This document shows positions 8,876 through 19,468 of a stretch of DNA of 64,000 nucleotides, one piece after another. The stretch lies in the NCBI GenBank assembly GCA_902596325.1, contig CACJTN010000004.1, positions 1 through 64,000 on the forward strand, in the 5' to 3' direction. Source of the stretch: an uncultured Pelagibacteraceae bacterium. Lineage in GTDB: Bacteria; Pseudomonadota; Alphaproteobacteria; Pelagibacterales; Pelagibacteraceae. Numbering within the stretch: the first letter of the stretch is position 1; each line of letters begins with the position of its first letter. The position numbers were made by a program, and so were the translations under genes. Under the pieces are notes generated by a model. That model worked only from the letters and a program-made list of their open reading frames with translations, was not told where the DNA came from and ran no database searches.

Positions 8876-8902
8876 TAATAGGAATATGATATAAGATTTT
8901 CA

Positions 8903-8972
8903 ACGGAAGAGACTACTTAATTGTAGCGCCGAAGGAGCAACCACCCCGGAAACTCTCAGGCAAAAGGACCGT
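8903..8972 (+). promoter_or_regulatory. glycine riboswitch, aptamer 1
   Basis: acGGAAGAGActacttaattgtaGCGCCGAAGGAGCAAccaccccGGAAACTCTCAGGCAAAAGGACCgt matches the glycine aptamer consensus, directly upstream of gcvT. Confidence 0.93.
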
Positions 8973-9059
8973 AAATATTAACTCTGGAAAGAGAAAGTTT
9001 CTCGCCGACGGAGTAAATCTCTCAGGCTCATAGACAGAGGGGGTAAGAGTTAATATTTA
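8972..9059 (+). promoter_or_regulatory. glycine riboswitch, aptamer 2, with extended 14-bp P1
   Basis: ctctGGAAAGAGaaagtttctCGCCGACGGAGTAAatCTCTCAGGCTCATAGACAGAGGGGGtaagag. taaatattaactct (8972-8985) is the perfect reverse complement of agagttaatattta (9046-9059). Confidence 0.9.
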
Positions 9060-10165
9060 TGAATAAAACAGCTTTATACCAATTACACAAAAAATTTAAT
9101 GCGAAATTTGTATCTTTTGCTGGGTATGAAATGCCTATCCAATATAAAGATGGAATAATTGCAGAACATAACCTAACGAGAAAAAAGTCAGGGATATTTG
9201 ATGTATCACATATGGGTCAATTATTTATTCTGGGTGATGATAAATTAACAGACAAACTTCAAGATATATTTCCAACAGACTTAAAAAATTTATCGGTTAA
9301 TCAGAGTAGATACTCGTTTTTAATGAATGAGAACGCAGGAATTTACGACGATTTAATAATTACAAAAATTTCTAATGGTTATATGATAATTCTTAATGCT
9401 GCATGTAAAGAAAAAGATTTTGAAATAATCAAATCTAAATTAGGTGAAGATTTTAAAATATCATTAAGTAAAGACCTATCTCTTGTTGCTGTACAAGGTC
9501 CTGACTCAAAAAATTTAATTGAAAAAATTATTCCAGGTGTAAATAAACTAAAATTTATGTTTGGTGGAGATTTTAAATTTAACTCAAATAAGATTTATGT
9601 AACAAGATCGGGATACACAGGAGAAGATGGTTTTGAGATTTCGATAAATAATAATGATGTAGTTAAATTTGTTGAGGCATTAATCAGTTTAGGATCTAAT
9701 CTTATAGGCCTTGGTGCCAGAGATACATTAAGGCTTGAAGCAGGGTTGTGTTTATACGGCAATGACATTGACGAAAATACCAGTCCATTAGAAGCAAATT
9801 TAAAATGGGCAATTTCAAAAAATCGAATCAACAGTAATTTTCCTGGGTCAAAACAAATTCAGAGACAAATTAATGAAGGTGTCACAAAACTGAGAGTTGG
9901 CATTAAACCTGAAGGTAAAATTATAGCACGAGAATCAACAAAAATATTTGATGAAAATAATAATCAAATAGGAAAAATTACTAGCGGTTCTTTTGGCCCG
10001 AGTGTAAAAAGTCCTATTGCAATGGGTTATGTAAATAATACATATACTAAAGAAAATACAAAAATATTTTTAGAAATAAGGGGAAAAAAAGTTTCGGCGA
10101 GTGTTTGTAAGCTCCCGTTTTATAAAAAAAACTATCACAAAGGAGATGTAAATGTCGGAAGTTAA
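9059..10165 (+). CDS. gcvT: glycine cleavage system T protein (aminomethyltransferase)
   Basis: [83 protein letters not shown]. Confidence 0.96.
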
Positions 10166-10532
10166 ATTTTCTAAAGAACATGAGTGGGTTACTATTAAAG
10201 ATGACGTGGCTACAATCGGAATTACTAAACACGCAACAGAATTGTTGGGAGATATTGTTTTTGCAGAGCTTCCAGAAAAAGGGACAAGTGTTACTAAAGA
10301 TGGAACAGCAGGTGTAGTAGAGTCTACAAAAGCAGCTAGTGATGTTTATACACCAATAAGCGGAGAAGTTGTTGATACAAATCAGTCAATCGTTGATGAT
10401 CCCTCTAAAATTAATAATGATCCTGAGGGAGATGCTTGGTTTTTTAAACTAAAAGTAAAAGATTTAAATGAAATAAATTCTTTAATGAGTAGGGAGGAAT
10501 ATGAAAAATTTGCTAAGGAGAGTACTAACTAA
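10152..10532 (+). CDS. gcvH: glycine cleavage system H protein
   Basis: [39 protein letters not shown], lipoyl motif [20 protein letters not shown]. Confidence 0.96.
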
Positions 10533-13396
10533 TGTTACATAATTCAGAAAAAGATTTTATTAAAAGACATATAGGTTTGTCCAAAAAAGACGAAAAAACT
10601 ATGTTATTAGACCTTGGTTATAAATCTTTAAATGAATTTATTGAAGATACTGTTCCAAGTAAAATTTTGCTTAAAGATTTGTTAAGCATAGGAGATCCTA
10701 ATTCTGAGTATGAAGGTTTAAGAAAATTAAGATCGATATCAAAAAAAAATCAAATTTACTCAAATTTTATAGGTATGGGTTACTATGGAACTTATACTCC
10801 AAACGTTATTGTCAGAAATATACTAGAAAATCCGGGATGGTATACTTCTTACACTCCTTATCAACCAGAGGTGGCCCAAGGAAGATTGGAGATGCTATTA
10901 AATTTTCAGCAAATGATAATAGATTTTACGGGAATGGATATTGCAAACGCATCACTACTTGATGAAGGAACTGCTGCTGCTGAAGCTATGGGGTTAAGTC
11001 ATAGATTAGATAAAAAAGATAATAAAATTGTGTTTATATCAAATGATTGTCATCCACAAACTATAGAAGTTGTTAAAACCAGATCAGAGCCTTTAGGGCT
11101 TAAAGTTGTTATTGGCAATGACGAAGACTTATCAAATATTTCAGAGGATATAATATGTGGAATACTTCAATATCCTGGTACACTTGGAGATATTAAGGAC
11201 CCTAGCGAAAATATAAGTAAAATTAAAAAAAGAAATGGTAAATCAATTTTAGTATGTGATTTATTATCTTTAGCAAAATTAAAAACACCAGCAGAATTAG
11301 GAGCTGATATAGCTGTGGGAAGTTCTCAAAGATTCGGAATTCCTATGGGTTACGGTGGTCCACACGCAGCTTTCTTTGCTACGAAGGATGAATTCAAGAG
11401 ATCGATGCCTGGAAGAATTGTAGGTGTTTCAGTCGATAGACATGGGAACAAAGCTTATAGATTAGCTTTACAAACAAGAGAGCAACACATTCGAAGAGAT
11501 AAGGCGACAAGTAACATTTGTACAGCACAAGCTCTTTTGGCAATTGTATCAGCAGCATATGCAATTTATCACGGCCCAAAAGGTATAAAAACAATTTCTG
11601 AAAGAGTTTCACAATTAGCTAAAAATTTTGCAGATAAATTAAAACAATCAGGCTATGAGTTATATTCAGACTATTTTTTTGACACAGTAACTATAATAAC
11701 AAAAGATAAAACAGATCAAATTTTTAATAACGCTTTGGCCCAGAAAGTTAATATTAGAAAAGTAAATTCTGAAATGCTATCGGTATCATTTGATGAAAAG
11801 AAAAATGTTTATAGAGCAAATCAACTACTTAAAATATTCAATTGTGCAGAATCAATTAAAGAAAATCCGACAGAAAATCTTCCAAATTTACCTAAAAACT
11901 TGCTAAGAACGTCAACTTATTTAGATCACCAAGTATTCAATAGCTATCACTCCGAAACTGAAATGCTAAGATATTTAAAGAGATTAGAGGAAAAAGATAT
12001 TGCACTTAATAGGTCAATGATAGCATTAGGCTCGTGTACAATGAAATTAAATGCTGTAGCAGAGATGATACCAATTACATGGCGTGAATTTTCAGAGCCT
12101 CATCCTTTTGCACCCATTGAACAAATGGAAGGTTTTAGAACTCTTTTTACTGATCTAAAAAATTGGCTTAGATCAATCACAGGTTTTTCAGGTGTGTCAC
12201 TACAACCAAATGCTGGTGCTCAAGGTGAATATGCAGGACTGATGGTTATACGGAAATATCATCTTGAAAGGGGAGAGTCTAATAGAAATGTTTGTTTAAT
12301 TCCTAGCTCTGCTCACGGGACCAATCCAGCAAGTGCACAAATGGTTGGAATGAAAGTGGTAGTGGTTAACTGTGATAAACAAGGAAATGTAGATTTTGAA
12401 GATCTAAATAAAAAAGTAGAAGCGCATTCTGAGAATTTAGGTGCGTTAATGGTAACATACCCATCTACACATGGAGTTTTTGAGGAAAAAATATCAGATA
12501 TATGTGAGCTAGTACATAAACATGGTGGCCAAGTTTATATGGATGGTGCAAACTTGAATGCTCTTGTTGGGATAGCAAAACCTGGAAATTTTGGTCCGGA
12601 TGTATGTCATATAAATCTACATAAAACTTTTTGTATTCCACATGGAGGTGGTGGACCAGGTATGGGCCCAATAGCATGTAAGAGACATTTAGAAATATAT
12701 TTGCCCTCACATCCTGTTATAAAAGATTGTGGCCCTGCAACCGGTATAGGTCCTGTCTCTGCAGCGCCATGGGGAAGTTCAAGTATTTTATCTATATCTT
12801 GGATGTACATTAAAATGATGGGTTCTGAAGGTTTAAAATTAGCAACTCAGATTGCAATTTTAAATGCTAACTATGTTGCACATAAATTAAAAAATCATTT
12901 TCCAATTCTTTATAAAGGAACAAATGGAAACGTAGCTCATGAGTGTATTATAGACATTAGATCAATTAAAAATGATACCGGCGTAACAGAGGAAGATATT
13001 GCAAAAAGATTAATCGATTTTGGTTTTCATGCCCCAACTATGTCTTGGCCAGTGCCTGGCACAATGATGATTGAACCTACAGAAAGTGAAAGTTTACAAG
13101 AACTTGATAGATTTTGTGATTGCTTGATAAAAATTAAAGAGGAAATAGACAAAATTAAAAGTGGTGATTTCGATAAAAATGACAATCCTATCAAAAATGC
13201 TCCACATACAGATTTAGAACTTGCTTCAAATAAATGGGAACATAAATATTCGAGGGAGGAGGCCGCTTACCCTTCTAACTTTTTGAGATCTAGTAAATTT
13301 TGGCCACCTGTCGCAAGAGTTGATAATGTATATGGAGATAAAAACCTTTTTTGCACATGCCCTTCCATGGATGAATTTAAAGAAGACGCAGCATAA
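10532..13396 (+). CDS. gcvP: glycine dehydrogenase (decarboxylating), single-chain P protein, 954 aa
   Basis: [70 protein letters not shown]-type PLP motif ([17 protein letters not shown]). Confidence 0.97.
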   Translation: [954 protein letters not shown]

Positions 13397-13401
13397 TATT
13401 A

Positions 13402-14643
13402 ATGAGAATTGCTGTAATCGGATCAGGCATATCTGGTTTAAGTGCAGCACACTATTTATCTAAAAAAAATAAAGTTGATTTATTTGAAAAAGAGGATCAT
13501 TTCGGTGGTCACTCATATACCATAGATGTTAAAGATAATAACAATCATGTTCCTGTGGATATAGGTTTTATTGTTTTTAATTTTAAAACCTACCCTAATT
13601 TTGTAAAATTTTTAAATGATAACGGCATTGAGATAGAGAAAAGCAACATGAGTTTTTCAGTTTCTGTTAAAGAAACAGAAATAGAATATTGTGGTAAGGG
13701 CTTGCTTGGAATTTTTTCAAATAAAAAAAATTTACTCAATTTTGATTTTTTTAAAATGTTTTTTGAAATAATTAAATTTTATAAAAAGAGTAATGATTTA
13801 AAAAATATAGAAGAGAACTTAACATTAGATGATTTTTTAAAACGAGAGAAAATGTCCAAATATTTTATAAATTATCATATTATTCCTATGGTTTCTGCAA
13901 TATGGTCTATGCCACCTTATGAGGCAAAACAAATGCCTTTAAAATTTTTTTTAAAATTTTTTCAAAACCATGGTTTGTTCAACTTAAAAAATAGACCTCA
14001 GTGGTATACGATTAAAAATAGAAGCAGAACCTATGTAAAAAAAATATTAGAAACCATTAGTGGTGAATATTACAAAAATTATAGAATTAATAAAATATCT
14101 AGATTGTCAAATGGAGTAAAAGTTTACTATGGAGGGAATAACGAATTTTTTGATTACGATAAGGTTGTAATTGCCACACATGCAGATGAAGCCTTATCCT
14201 TAATTACAGACCCAACACCGGAAGAAAAAAGTATATTAGCTAATTTTAAATATAAGAATAATATTGCAATAATTCATACAGATGAATCTTTAATGCCTAA
14301 AAATAAAAAAGCATGGTCATCATGGAATTCTTCTGTAAATAAAGAAAATACTTCAGAAACTTCAATTACTTATTGGCTTAATTTGCTTCAAAATTTAAAA
14401 ACAAATAAAAATATATTTTTATCATTAAATCCATTTTTAAAAATCGATCCAAAAAAAATTATAAGTAAAGTTAAGTTTACTCATCCATATTATGATAAAG
14501 AGGCCTTAGAAAATCAAAATAGACTAAAAAATATACAAAACAAAAAAAATTTATTATTTTGTGGCAGTTATTTTGGTTACGGATTTCATGAGGATGGAAT
14601 AAAATCTTCATTAGAAATGATAAAAAGTTTTAATGATAGATAA
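13402..14643 (+). CDS. FAD-dependent amine-oxidase-like flavoprotein (possible UfaD-like fatty acid desaturase)
   Basis: MRIAVIGSGISGLSAAHYLSKKNKVDLFEKEDHFGGHSYT Rossmann motif; located directly before DUF1365 and CFA-synthase-like genes. Confidence 0.85.
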   Translation: MRIAVIGSGISGLSAAHYLSKKNKVDLFEKEDHFGGHSYTIDVKDNNNHVPVDIGFIVFNFKTYPNFVKFLNDNGIEIEKSNMSFSVSVKETEIEYCGKGLLGIFSNKKNLLNFDFFKMFFEIIKFYKKSNDLKNIEENLTLDDFLKREKMSKYFINYHIIPMVSAIWSMPPYEAKQMPLKFFLKFFQNHGLFNLKNRPQWYTIKNRSRTYVKKILETISGEYYKNYRINKISRLSNGVKVYYGGNNEFFDYDKVVIATHADEALSLITDPTPEEKSILANFKYKNNIAIIHTDESLMPKNKKAWSSWNSSVNKENTSETSITYWLNLLQNLKTNKNIFLSLNPFLKIDPKKIISKVKFTHPYYDKEALENQNRLKNIQNKKNLLFCGSYFGYGFHEDGIKSSLEMIKSFNDR

Positions 14644-15397
14644 ATCGTGCTTATATGTCGGAAGTGTAATACATAAAAGATTCAAACCAAAAGAGCACTT
14701 TTTTAAATACAAAGTATTTTCTCTTTATCTTAACCTTGATGAGATTGACGAGGTCCAAAAAAAAATCCCTTTTTTTTCTTATAACAAATTTAATTTAATT
14801 AGTTTTTACAATAAAGATCATGGTGAAAGAGATGGTTCATCTTTAAAATTGTGGGTGCAAAAAAAGCTAAATGAAGTAGGTATTGGAAATGAAATTAAAA
14901 GTGTAAATTTACTATGTTATCCAAGAATTTTTGGTTACGTCTTTAATCCTTTAAGTATTTTTTTCGTATTTGATAAATATTCGTCCCTTATAGCCATAAT
15001 GTATGAAGTTAAAAATACATTTGGTGAACAGCATACTTATATTTTTAAAACTAAAGATAATAATTTAATAAAAAATCATTGTGATAAAAAATTTTATGTC
15101 TCACCTTTTATGGATTTAAATTCAACCTATAATTTTAAAATATTAAAACCTGGAAATAAATTATCCGTTATTATTGATCAAAGAGATAGTGAGGGAAAGT
15201 TATTATTTGCATCTCAAGATGGCGAAAAAATTGAGTTAAATACAAAAAATCTTTTAATTTCCTATTTAAAACACCCATTAATGACATTTAAAGTAATTTC
15301 AGCGATACATTTTGAGGCATTAAGATTATGGGTAAAAAGAATTAAGTTTATAAAAAAGGTTATAAAAATTAAAAATAACGTAAGTTTTGAAAAATAA
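14633..15397 (+). CDS. DUF1365 family protein
   Basis: LYVGSVIHKRFKPKEHFFKYKVFSLYLNLDEID, YPRIFGYVFNPLSIFFVFD, MYEVKNTFGEQHTYIF, FYVSPFMDLNSTYNF. Confidence 0.88.
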   Translation: MIDKSCLYVGSVIHKRFKPKEHFFKYKVFSLYLNLDEIDEVQKKIPFFSYNKFNLISFYNKDHGERDGSSLKLWVQKKLNEVGIGNEIKSVNLLCYPRIFGYVFNPLSIFFVFDKYSSLIAIMYEVKNTFGEQHTYIFKTKDNNLIKNHCDKKFYVSPFMDLNSTYNFKILKPGNKLSVIIDQRDSEGKLLFASQDGEKIELNTKNLLISYLKHPLMTFKVISAIHFEALRLWVKRIKFIKKVIKIKNNVSFEK

Positions 15398-16575
15398 TGT
15401 ATCTAAAAAAAATTTCTGACAGAATTGTTCTTAATTCACTTAAAAATATTTCTTATGGAAACATCAAATTTATTAATTATGATGGTAGTATTAAAATATT
15501 AGGTTCAAAGAAATCAGAAAAAACCGCAATATTAAAACTAATAAAACCAGGTCTAACTTTTGAAATAATTAATAAAGGCAGCATTGGATTGGCAGAATCC
15601 TATATACGAGGAGATTTTGAAACAGATAACCTGACTAATTTAATTGAAATTGCTGCAAAAAATATAGGTAAAGTACATAAGATATCTGGTGTGTTAGATT
15701 TTCCTATAATTAATTATTTTAAAAGTTTTTTTATTAAAAATACAAAGAGAAAAAGTAAAGAAAATATTGCCAAGCATTACGATTTAGGAAATGAATTTTT
15801 CTCATTATGGCTAGATAAAACTTTAACATACTCTAGTGCTATTTTTGAAGATAAACAAAATGATTTAGAGAATGCTCAATTAAATAAATATAAAAAATTG
15901 TCCAATCTTATTAAACCAAAAAGTGGAGATAAAATTTTAGAAATAGGATGTGGATGGGGAGGTTTTGGCGAATTCATTGGAAAGAATTACGATGTAAAAT
16001 TAGATTGTATAACAATATCAAAAAAACAATACGAGTTTGCTAAAAATAGAATTTATAAAAATGGATTAAATGAAAAAGTAAAAATTAAAATGTTAGATTA
16101 TAGAGACGTAAATAAAAAATATAATTCTATAGCTTCTATTGAGATGATTGAAGCTGTAGGTCAAAACTATCTACCAAGTTATTTTAAAAAAATTAAAGAT
16201 AGCTTGCATCAAAACGGTATTGCCGCGATACAAGCAATTACTATAGATGAAAAAATATATAATAGATATAAGATGAAAACAGATTTTATTCAAAAATACA
16301 TATTTCCAGGTGGTTTTTTGCCGAGTAAGAAGGAAATATTAAAACTTTCAAATAAAAATGGTTTAAGTTTTGACAAATGTAACTCTTATGGCTTGGATTA
16401 TTCCAACACCCTGAGAATTTGGAGAAATGATTTCCAAAAAAAATGGGATATTATTTCAAAACAGGGATTTGATGAAACATTTAGAAGAATGTGGAATTTT
16501 TATTTGTCTTATTGTGAAGCTGGCTTTAAAGCTAAGAATATTGATTTAATTCAATTTTCGATGAATAAAAACTAA
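15397..16575 (+). CDS. cyclopropane-fatty-acyl-phospholipid synthase family SAM methyltransferase
   Basis: AKHYDLGNEFFSLWLDKTLTYSSAIFE, KILEIGCGWGGFGEFIGKNY, ISKKQYEFAKNRI, SIEMIEAVGQNYLPSYFKKIKDSL, QKYIFPGGFLPS. Confidence 0.92.
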   Translation: MYLKKISDRIVLNSLKNISYGNIKFINYDGSIKILGSKKSEKTAILKLIKPGLTFEIINKGSIGLAESYIRGDFETDNLTNLIEIAAKNIGKVHKISGVLDFPIINYFKSFFIKNTKRKSKENIAKHYDLGNEFFSLWLDKTLTYSSAIFEDKQNDLENAQLNKYKKLSNLIKPKSGDKILEIGCGWGGFGEFIGKNYDVKLDCITISKKQYEFAKNRIYKNGLNEKVKIKMLDYRDVNKKYNSIASIEMIEAVGQNYLPSYFKKIKDSLHQNGIAAIQAITIDEKIYNRYKMKTDFIQKYIFPGGFLPSKKEILKLSNKNGLSFDKCNSYGLDYSNTLRIWRNDFQKKWDIISKQGFDETFRRMWNFYLSYCEAGFKAKNIDLIQFSMNKN

Positions 16576-16579
16576 ATTA

Positions 16580-17116
16580 ATGAAAATTAAAAAATTATTA
16601 TTGCTAATATGCACTCTTTTCATTACAAATTGCTCAACTAATCAAGCAATGAAACCTGAGGATTTTAAAGATCAGAAACCAAGATTAATAATCGAAGAAT
16701 ATTTATCAGGTAATGTTAAAGCTTGGGGTATTTTGCAAAATAGATCAGGAAAGGTTACAAGACAATTCTCTGCAGATCTCAATGGTAATTGGGATGGAAA
16801 ACAGTTAATTCTTGACGAAAAATTTAATTGGTCTGATGGAGAAATCCAAAATAGACAGTGGCAGATTACAAAAATTGATGATCATAATTATGAAGGTACA
16901 GCTGGTGATGTGGTAGGAACAGCAAAAGGTTACTCATATGGCCCAACATTTAAGTTTGAATATGTATTATTAGTTCCAGTAAAAGGTAGAGAATTAAAAA
17001 TTACATTTGATGATTGGATTTTCATGCAAGATGAGAGAGTAGCGATAAATAGAGCAACAATGACAAAATTTGGAATAAAAGTTGCAGAACTTACTGTTAT
17101 GTTTGTGAAAGATTAG
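16580..17116 (+). CDS. DUF3833-family lipoprotein
   Basis: Lipobox LFITNCSTN; ...GNVKAWGILQNRSGKVTRQFSADLNGNWDGKQLILDEKFNWSDGEIQNRQWQI. Confidence 0.8.
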   Translation: MKIKKLLLLICTLFITNCSTNQAMKPEDFKDQKPRLIIEEYLSGNVKAWGILQNRSGKVTRQFSADLNGNWDGKQLILDEKFNWSDGEIQNRQWQITKIDDHNYEGTAGDVVGTAKGYSYGPTFKFEYVLLVPVKGRELKITFDDWIFMQDERVAINRATMTKFGIKVAELTVMFVKD

Positions 17117-17871
17117 CGTTTTTGATATTTTGTAAGTCTACCAACTAAACTTAAATACCAGCTATTAGGTAATATTTTTAAAAATTTTAGTATCAAAGTT
17201 AATTGTTTTGGGAAATGTATCTCAAATTGATTAGTTTTAGTTAATCCTTCAAATATTTTTTCAGCCGCATAATCTACCGTTTTAAGGAAAGGCATTTTAA
17301 AATCATTTTTATCTGTCATCGGTGTTTTAATAAATCCAGGTGAAATTAATGAAACTCTAACTCCGTATCTTTTAAAATCGAAATACAAGCTTTCAGCAAG
17401 ATTATTTAATGCAGATTTAGATGGGCCATATCCAGTTGAATTTGGTAGTCCTCTATAACCTGCAATTGATGATACAATAGAAATATGTCCACTTCCTCTT
17501 GTTCTGTAATATTCCTCTACACTTTTAATACAATTTAAGGTGCCAAAAAAATTTACTTTCATCACGTTTTCAATCTGTTCAACATCTATGTCTTTCTCTT
17601 TTTTAGGATCCCATGTACCGGTAGAAAAAAAAGATATGTCTATATTTTTAAATTTTGCAATAATATTTTGAAAAACTTCGCTGCAGTTTTCCTTATTTGT
17701 TACATCTAAAGGGTATGGAAAAATATTTTGATTAGATTTTTCTAGTTCTCGCAATAGATTCTCTCTTCTAGCAGAAACTGCAACATTCCACCCATTATTT
17801 GCAAACTTTAAAGCTAAAGCCCTACCTATACCTGTGCTACCTCCAGTAATCCAAATAGTTTTATCGTTCAT
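17113..17871 (-). CDS. short-chain dehydrogenase/reductase
   Basis: MNDKTIWITGGSTGIGRALALKFANNGWNVAVSARR; SSIAGYRGLPNSTGYGPSKSALNNL. The listed ORF begins at a TTG (17877); the ATG at 17871 is preferred. Confidence 0.9.
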   Translation of the reverse strand: MNDKTIWITGGSTGIGRALALKFANNGWNVAVSARRENLLRELEKSNQNIFPYPLDVTNKENCSEVFQNIIAKFKNIDISFFSTGTWDPKKEKDIDVEQIENVMKVNFFGTLNCIKSVEEYYRTRGSGHISIVSSIAGYRGLPNSTGYGPSKSALNNLAESLYFDFKRYGVRVSLISPGFIKTPMTDKNDFKMPFLKTVDYAAEKIFEGLTKTNQFEIHFPKQLTLILKFLKILPNSWYLSLVGRLTKYQKR

Positions 17872-17878
17872 AATCAAC

Positions 17879-17892
17879 TGATATATATATCA
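17879..17892. promoter_or_regulatory. candidate symmetric divergent promoter/operator between SDR gene and tspO
   Basis: Perfect 14-bp palindrome TGATATATATATCA within a 23-bp divergent gap; same TGATA-N4-TATCA form as at 6368. Confidence 0.45.
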
Positions 17893-17894
17893 AA

Positions 17895-18362
17895 ATGTTA
17901 AAAAATAAATTTATATCTTTTATAATACTTGGAACAATTACTTATTCGGCGTCTTTTGTGGGTGCGATTTCAACAATTTCTTATAAAGAGCCATGGTATT
18001 CAACTTTAAATAAAGCTTCATTTAATCCACCTGATTGGATTTTTGCTCCAGTATGGACAACACTTTATCTATTCATGACAATCGCAATTTGGTCAGCTTG
18101 GCATAAAAATACTAAAGATATTGGGTTAGTATTTATATATTTAATTCATATTTTTTTTAATACTACTTGGAGTATTGTTTTTTTTGTGATGCATGATATT
18201 TTCGTCGCATTAGTTAATATCATTATAATAATATTATTCATTTTGTTTCTTATGAATAAATATAAACCCCTAAGTAAACTAAGCTACAATCTAATGATTC
18301 CGTATTTACTTTGGACAGTTTATGCATTAATCCTAAATACAAGTTTACTAGTTTTAAATTAA
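17895..18362 (+). CDS. tspO: TspO/MBR family protein
   Basis: EPWYSTLNKASFNPPDWIFAPVWTTLYLFMTIAIWSAWHK; five TM segments; NTTWSIVFF. Confidence 0.9.
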   Translation: MLKNKFISFIILGTITYSASFVGAISTISYKEPWYSTLNKASFNPPDWIFAPVWTTLYLFMTIAIWSAWHKNTKDIGLVFIYLIHIFFNTTWSIVFFVMHDIFVALVNIIIIILFILFLMNKYKPLSKLSYNLMIPYLLWTVYALILNTSLLVLN

Positions 18363-18364
18363 AT

Positions 18365-19468
18365 ATGGATGATGTCGTAATAATTGGAGGTGGAATAATT
18401 GGAACTGCAACAGCATATTTTTTGTCTAAAGAGGGAAGAAAGGTAAAAGTTATAGAAAGAGATCCTACTTACAAAATTGCATCATTTCCATTATCATTAG
18501 GCGGGTTTAGAAGGCAATTCTTTCAAAAAGAAAATATTTTATTAGGTAAATTTGCAAGAGAATTCATTTTTAACTTACCAAAACATCTAAAAACAAAAAA
18601 AAACCCAAACCCAACTGCAAGCATGGTGCCTAATGGCTATTTACTAATGTTTGGCCCAGATAAAGCCGAAGAACAATACAAAGCTTTAGAAAATCATAAA
18701 GAATGCAACGCAGGAACAAAAAATATTAAAGGCTCAGAAATTAAAAACATATTTCCATATATTAACAATGAGGGTATCGCAACAGCTACCTATACAGATA
18801 ATGAAACAGAAGGGTGGATAGATCCATTCCTTTTTCATGGAGCATTAAAGAGCAAAGCAGAGGAACTAGGAGCTAAATTTATAAAAGGAGAAGTTAAAAG
18901 TCTTTCTGAAATTAATGCTAAGACAATCGTTTCAGCAGCAGGATGTTGGACTAAAGAATTATTGGATGATATACCAGTAGTACCTCAAAAACACACAGTA
19001 TTTAGAGTGAAGTGTTCAAAGTATATAAAGGAAATGCCATTAACTGGAGATTTAACTTCAGGTGTTTATTGGAGACCTGAGGGTGGAGAATATTTAGCAG
19101 GATCCCCGATATCAACTTTTGATGCTAAAGATCTTGAGCCTGATTGGTCTCATTATGAGGAACTAGTATGGCCGGCGCTCGCAAAAAGAGTGCCAATATT
19201 CGAGGAATTAAAATTAACAGGAGCTTGGGCTGGTTATTATGATTGTAATAAATTGGACAACAATGCTGTTGTAGGAAAACATCCCAAATACGAGAACGTT
19301 TATATGGCCTCTGGATTTACAGGGAGAGGATTAATGCAGGCTCCAGGAATAGGAAGAGCGCTGACAGAACTTATTACGACTGGCAAATATCAGACAATTG
19401 ATATAAGCGTTTTTGACGTTGAAAGGGTTTTAAATAGTAAAGCTAGACCAGAACCCTACGTATTATAA
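18365..19468 (+). CDS. FAD-dependent (DAO-type) oxidoreductase
   Basis: ATG at 18365: MDDVVIIGGGIIGTATAYFLSKEGRKVKVIERD; DCNKLDNNAVVGKHPKYENVYMASGFTGRGLMQAPGIGRALTELI. Confidence 0.85.
   Translation: MDDVVIIGGGIIGTATAYFLSKEGRKVKVIERDPTYKIASFPLSLGGFRRQFFQKENILLGKFAREFIFNLPKHLKTKKNPNPTASMVPNGYLLMFGPDKAEEQYKALENHKECNAGTKNIKGSEIKNIFPYINNEGIATATYTDNETEGWIDPFLFHGALKSKAEELGAKFIKGEVKSLSEINAKTIVSAAGCWTKELLDDIPVVPQKHTVFRVKCSKYIKEMPLTGDLTSGVYWRPEGGEYLAGSPISTFDAKDLEPDWSHYEELVWPALAKRVPIFEELKLTGAWAGYYDCNKLDNNAVVGKHPKYENVYMASGFTGRGLMQAPGIGRALTELITTGKYQTIDISVFDVERVLNSKARPEPYVL

Follow-up and report, generated by a model that had tools for sequence, protein, structure and literature searches.

A candidate furan fatty acid operon in SAR11

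What do three overlapping genes in a SAR11 genome make, and what controls them? The genes lie at positions 13402-16575 of a 64,000-nucleotide stretch (here called the window; positions 1 to 64,000 of contig CACJTN010000004.1, assembly GCA_902596325.1) from an uncultured Pelagibacteraceae bacterium, the source genome of which spans 828 kb over 46 contigs and is 64.5% complete. The closest matches to the window come from Pelagibacteraceae genomes. We refer to them as D (13402-14643), O (14633-15397) and M (15397-16575), and to SAR11 and other loci by L numbers. The most probable reading is that they form a ufaD-ufaO-ufaM operon for furan fatty acids, likely transcribed from the promoter of a glycine-riboswitch gcvTHP operon. 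An earlier note on this DNA had described an amine-oxidase-like flavoprotein, a DUF1365 protein and a cyclopropane fatty acid (CFA)-family methylase, followed by a DUF3833 lipoprotein, an SDR and TspO. All were recovered with Pfam matches, each as an intact open reading frame (ORF) at the coordinates given there.

All three genes are on the forward strand, with an 11-nt overlap between D and O and a 1-nt overlap between O and M. D is a UfaD-like FAD flavoprotein (Pfam Amino_oxidase/NAD_binding_8, GxGxxG at residues 7-12), with the amine oxidase LkcE as its nearest solved structure (E 1.3e-29), and is a predicted desaturase of methylated 18:1. It is directly linked, by its overlapping gene, to the DUF1365 protein O (PF07103, E 1.7e-76), a UfaO-like protein and predicted O2-dependent, furan-forming oxygenase. 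M (PF02353, E 1.4e-83) is a UfaM-like S-adenosylmethionine (SAM) methylase of the CMAS superfamily, assigned by its active-site motif and tree position as described below. The same three families make up the pathway of Rhodobacter (Cereibacter) sphaeroides and Rhodopseudomonas palustris, in which UfaD is RSP1091, UfaO is RSP1090 (DUF1365) and UfaM is RSP2144 (Lemke 2020, PMC7380195), and Rhodopseudomonas RPA2571-2569 has the D-O-M gene order of the window. The UniProt accessions given for these proteins are Q3J4I7 (UfaM), Q3IYV7 (UfaD) and Q3IYV8 (UfaO), and for the further methylase FufM Q6NBA4 (PMC10940516). The likeness to UfaM and UfaD proposed earlier was thus borne out, and is stronger than was claimed, since the DUF1365 protein, to which no function name had been given, corresponds to UfaO, the third enzyme needed for the furan fatty acid 9M5-FuFA (PMC7380195).

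Conservation of the set was examined in SAR11 and in a comparison sample of DUF1365 loci from 60 Alphaproteobacteria outside SAR11 plus 40 loci collected around other CMAS genes. About 80 SAR11 loci share the D-O-M order. Outside SAR11, D is paired with O in 59 of the 60 DUF1365 loci, M is also present in 52, and 51 have D-O-M in this order on one strand. An arrangement kept this widely is far beyond chance. Ratios of nonsynonymous to synonymous substitution rates (dN/dS) were 0.05-0.17 for D, O and M, with dS near saturation for distant pairs.

By analogy with work in Rhodobacter, Rhodopseudomonas and Halomonas, from which the three activities are taken, M would use SAM to methylate 18:1 chains of phospholipids, presumed to be cis-vaccenoyl, a proton being lost from the chain without cyclopropane closure, to give 11-methyl-12t-18:1. 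D would desaturate this product to 11-methyl-10t,12t-18:2, and O would insert oxygen derived from O2 and close a monomethyl furan, a predicted antioxidant membrane lipid. No FufM-like third methylase was detected, as SAR11 genomes carry at most two CMAS genes each at E <= 1e-15 (the window's own genome being 64.5% complete), and the predicted product is therefore a monomethyl furan fatty acid. Shorter CMAS genes were noted at most about 5 kb from DUF1365 loci of other Alphaproteobacteria (G092:C23:66462, G089:C64:2957 and G072:C1:2520397), where they are FufM-like candidates for dimethylation.

Conservation of the DUF1365 protein

The pathway might instead be a shortened one that ends at the methyl-branched acid or at a methylated acid with two double bonds, O then catalysing a different oxidation. 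This alternative is unlikely. In its favor, UfaO has no known cofactor or mechanism, and O has neither a solved relative nor a confident fold match: its AlphaFold2 (AF2) model is beta-rich with a predicted local distance difference test score (pLDDT) of 84, and a fold search of the PDB gave a best E of 4.6e-3 with low TM-scores. The weak matches included fatty-acid-binding, nitrobindin and phycobilin-lyase barrels, and no fold family is claimed. In addition, the O protein of a second SAR11 family is far more divergent, at about 70 bits to window O. By contrast, O is kept in SAR11 D-O-M loci wherever the locus has enough sequence, is under purifying selection (dN/dS 0.07-0.16), and retains H14, R16, N128, T129 and Y136, which are among the residues conserved across 73 DUF1365 proteins.

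The methylase groups apart from CFA synthases

To classify M, residues were compared at the bicarbonate-site positions of Escherichia coli CFA synthase (C139, E239, H266, I268 and Y317; PMC3132707, PMC11387697) together with position 240, and motifs are given in the order 139/239/240/266/268/317. Window M retains E239, I268 and Y317 and has Ser, Ala and Gln in place of Cys139, His240 and His266, so that it reads S-E-A-Q-I-Y and lacks the Cfa-type site (C139 to Ser, H266 to Gln). The same motif was found in 83 of 83 SAR11 methylases linked to D-O-M. Among DUF1365-linked methylases outside SAR11, 50 of 53 have S/A-E-A-Q-I-Y and a further one carries Gly at position 139 (51/53 S/A/G-E-A-Q-I-Y). 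The two that do not fit are tandem copies in L142 (L142:5046-7580), where a CMAS pair beside D-O reads C-E-A-Q-I-Y and C-Q-Y-Q-F-Y, an unusual variant. Of 38 unlinked methylases, 31 read C-E-H-H-I-Y (one with Q at 266), as do three solved CFA synthases. The other seven belong to the S-E-A type. Four of these read S-E-A-Q-I-Y with high scores to window M, and for three of the four the D-O locus of the source genome has no adjacent M, as in R. sphaeroides. One unlinked UfaM-type methylase from such genomes adjoins a photolyase gene, and in one such genome D-O stands beside sigma and ChrR genes.

Phylogeny of 15397-16575 against CFA synthases had been named beforehand in the earlier note as the analysis that could overturn its proposal. 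In the tree, window M falls within a clade of D-O-M-linked methylases (39 rows, SH-aLRT 97), a clade shared with the D-O-M clusters of other bacteria, and lies apart from the CFA clade (18 rows, SH-aLRT 99). M thus appears to be a UfaM-type methylase distinct from CFA synthase, as judged from its sequence, the clade being named by linkage and synteny. The motif separates UfaM-type from CFA-type genes, which annotation pipelines label alike.

The cleanest test comes from paralogues of one genome. Most same-genus SAR11 genomes of at least 90% completeness have two CMAS genes, and about 32 of 35 such genomes have a copy of the D-O-M type (counted by profile score). All 12 unlinked SAR11 copies that were checked read C-E-H-H-I-Y, and the tree, which included six unlinked copies, groups these with CFA synthases; the linked copy reads S-E-A-Q-I-Y in 8 of 8 further SAR11 loci. 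The two paralogues therefore fall in different clades. In the window's own genome, at 64.5% completeness, M is the only CMAS gene seen. A SAR11-like CFA gene was also noted on a 3,011-base contig (L148, G062:C164) of a 3-Mb genome of another family, where it is probably assembly contamination.

These results bear on the possibility that M makes cyclopropane fatty acids, with D and O acting on something else or being bystanders, which we consider quite improbable. M does belong to the CMAS superfamily and shares with cyclopropane synthases (E. coli Cfa, PDB 6bqc; 5z9o; 7qos) the SAM site and the equivalents of E239, I268 and Y317, and plant cyclopropane synthases have the same Ser/Gln substitutions. 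It differs from the solved enzymes, however, at positions 139, 240 and 266 and in its clade, and SAR11 genomes already have a separate CFA-type gene. Moreover, in Halomonas sp. YLGW01, which like the more complete SAR11 genomes has contiguous ufaD-ufaO-ufaM and a separate cfa, the UfaM makes 11-methyloctadec-12-enoate in E. coli whereas the Cfa makes cyclopropanes (PMC12089945). Halomonas is not a SAR11 bacterium, and its M was tested by expression whereas that of SAR11 is known from sequence. In plants, UFAMD1/cyclopropane synthases (AT3G23510 and the cotton enzymes) resemble both UfaM and UfaD within a single protein (34-38% identity in published work) and have a DUF1365 partner, UFAO1 (AT1G30130); this system differs in being eukaryotic, in joining methylase and flavoprotein in one chain, and in that its cotton proteins have been reported as cyclopropane synthases.

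A glycine riboswitch and gcvTHP precede ufaDOM

The unit that includes D-O-M reaches further upstream than 13402, where the earlier note had begun its cluster; the gene positions in that account were right. On the same strand lie gcvT (aminomethyltransferase of the glycine cleavage system, 9059-10165), gcvH (glycine cleavage H protein, 10152-10532, overlapping gcvT) and gcvP (glycine dehydrogenase, 10532-13396), named from sequence and with the position of gcvT conserved across SAR11 loci. The end of gcvP is 5 nt before ufaD. Upstream of gcvT is a tandem glycine riboswitch at 8889-9041 (forward strand; Rfam RF03166 glycine-GGAnGA, E 2.3e-12, below the gathering score of that model), and the RF00504 Glycine aptamer matched 8894-8981 with 63.8 bits compared to a gathering score of 32. 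The aptamer is thus followed by co-directional, closely spaced genes. A glycine riboswitch upstream of gcvT is already known in P. ubique (PMC2704228), and the element was also found in L009, L019, L050 and L059.

This arrangement recurs across SAR11 loci. Of 71 loci with at least 4 kb of upstream sequence, 69 have gcvP immediately before D, and the gcvP-D gap is nearly constant (the same value in 60 of 76 loci). In the 60 loci from other Alphaproteobacteria, no gcv gene was detected in the vicinity of D-O. A promoter scan gave 45 matches compared to a mean of 61 in shuffled sequence. The riboswitch, gcvT, gcvH, gcvP, D, O, M and the DUF3833 gene apparently form one operon, their predicted co-transcription being drawn from gene spacing and direction, and ufaDOM would probably be transcribed from the riboswitch-controlled promoter. 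Expression should then follow glycine supply, not sigma-E/ChrR singlet-oxygen signalling. In the literature searched, no link from the gcv riboswitch operon downstream to ufaDOM was found.

Several observations weigh against the reading of D-O-M as a furan fatty acid operon under glycine control. L010, L015 and L025 have D-O-M without gcvTHP between the DMT gene and D, and no riboswitch was detected in these three loci; glycine control is therefore not essential to D-O-M. With regard to M, the UfaM identity of its clade derives from linkage and synteny and not from named reference UfaM, UfaD and UfaO sequences. In cotton cyclopropane synthases, furthermore, Gln replaces His266, and Ser replaces Cys139 in two of the three (PMC3132707). 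Because of these shared substitutions the motif marks a clade, and its use as proof of product was rejected. As to the layout of the three exceptional loci, the upstream side of D is near 6.0 kb in L010 and L015 and near 0.85 kb in L025, and D-O-M directly follows the DMT gene.

A second SAR11 family places ufaDOM behind sarcosine oxidase genes

In three genomes of a second SAR11 family (loci L195, L196 and L197), D-O-M has the UfaM-type motif and closes a sarcosine oxidase operon on its 3' side. Their layout (L195:1996-9038, L196:106-7192 and L197:949-7998) is a soxBDAG-type operon, a short ORF encoding about 125-146 aa and then ufaDOM, the genes overlapping or close. Most other genomes of this family lack a DUF1365 match above the cut-off and have a single CMAS gene, which was of the CFA type in the three checked. 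A search for gcvP in the second family, made without a positive control, gave no match.

Sarcosine oxidase and glycine cleavage both make 5,10-methylene-tetrahydrofolate. That D-O-M follows a one-carbon operon in both settings is suggestive of a coupling to methyl supply, although the pattern was spotted post hoc and consists of only two cases. We tentatively propose that the furan-lipid pathway of SAR11 moved from stress to one-carbon control, with ufaDOM placed 3' of two different operons of this kind (riboswitch-gcvTHP and sarcosine oxidase) in two families, so that methyl-branched and furan membrane lipids would be made in proportion to the supply of methyl groups; we rate this as possible, with the odds against it.

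The enzymes are a known set; the novelty is in the operon setting and in a regulator that differs from those of known systems. Known chiefly from photosynthetic stress regulation, the pathway appears to be wired differently here, by a glycine riboswitch and sarcosine oxidase genes. Judged from their genes, the most abundant bacteria of the ocean may make furan fatty acids, a link for which no paper was found in the literature searched. The near-universal presence of ufaDOM in one streamlined genus predicts measurable surface-ocean lipids, namely 11-methyl-18:1, 11-methyl-18:2 and 9M5-FuFA, and bears on the origin of marine furan fatty acids.

Neighboring genes and singlet-oxygen control

Control of these genes by sigma-E/ChrR is known in R. 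sphaeroides and is not part of the chemistry. A Rhodobacter-like module for singlet-oxygen stress of the sigma-E/ChrR type, partnered by TspO and msrA, is a very improbable reading of the cluster: D-O does stand beside ChrR-type genes in other Alphaproteobacteria, and DUF3833 and SDR genes recur near D-O-M, but no ChrR match over the curated cut-off was found in any of 55 SAR11 genomes searched (the same search found ChrR near DUF1365 in three other Alphaproteobacteria), TspO is near D-O in only 2 of 60 loci outside SAR11, and the position of msrA varies within SAR11. Because TspO is rare and msrA variable in this way, neither supports a photo-oxidative module; they were rejected as partners, and the photooxidative-stress lipid module that the earlier note had read from them was not upheld. 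An antioxidant role of the furan lipid itself may remain compatible with this evidence. A search of the source genome for rhodopsin was without a match, as were its controls. Compared to the Rhodobacter and Rhodopseudomonas pathway, the SAR11 version is thus alike in its families and in its recurrent DUF3833 and SDR neighbors, and unlike in having no detected ChrR or FufM-like methylase, in its attachment to a riboswitch-gcvTHP or sox operon, and in a product that is predicted.

Downstream of M, the DUF3833 lipoprotein gene (16580-17116, forward strand; PF12915, E 1.9e-60) encodes a predicted calycin-like beta barrel (AF2 pLDDT 90; Foldseek matches to lipocalin-like barrels at E 1e-5 to 1e-3), a model consistent with a lipid-binding lipoprotein. 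The SDR oxidoreductase gene (17113-17877; PF00106, adh_short) is convergent on the reverse strand and so lies outside the operon, in which respect the extent of the cluster drawn earlier did not hold; an SDR is near D-O in 40 of the 60 loci outside SAR11. RSP1088 and RSP1087 are presumably the DUF3833 and SDR proteins, as their lengths suggest. Single deletions of RSP1087, RSP1088 and RSP1089 left fatty acids unchanged (PMC7380195). DUF3833 is probably a conserved neighbor that is not catalytic for the pathway. The TspO homologue (17895-18362, forward strand; PF03073, TspO_MBR) is a SAR11 neighbor outside the module. It is followed by a DAO-family ORF (18311-19468), the listed TTG start of which overlaps TspO; translation more likely begins at an in-frame ATG near 18365 (MDDVVIIGGG).

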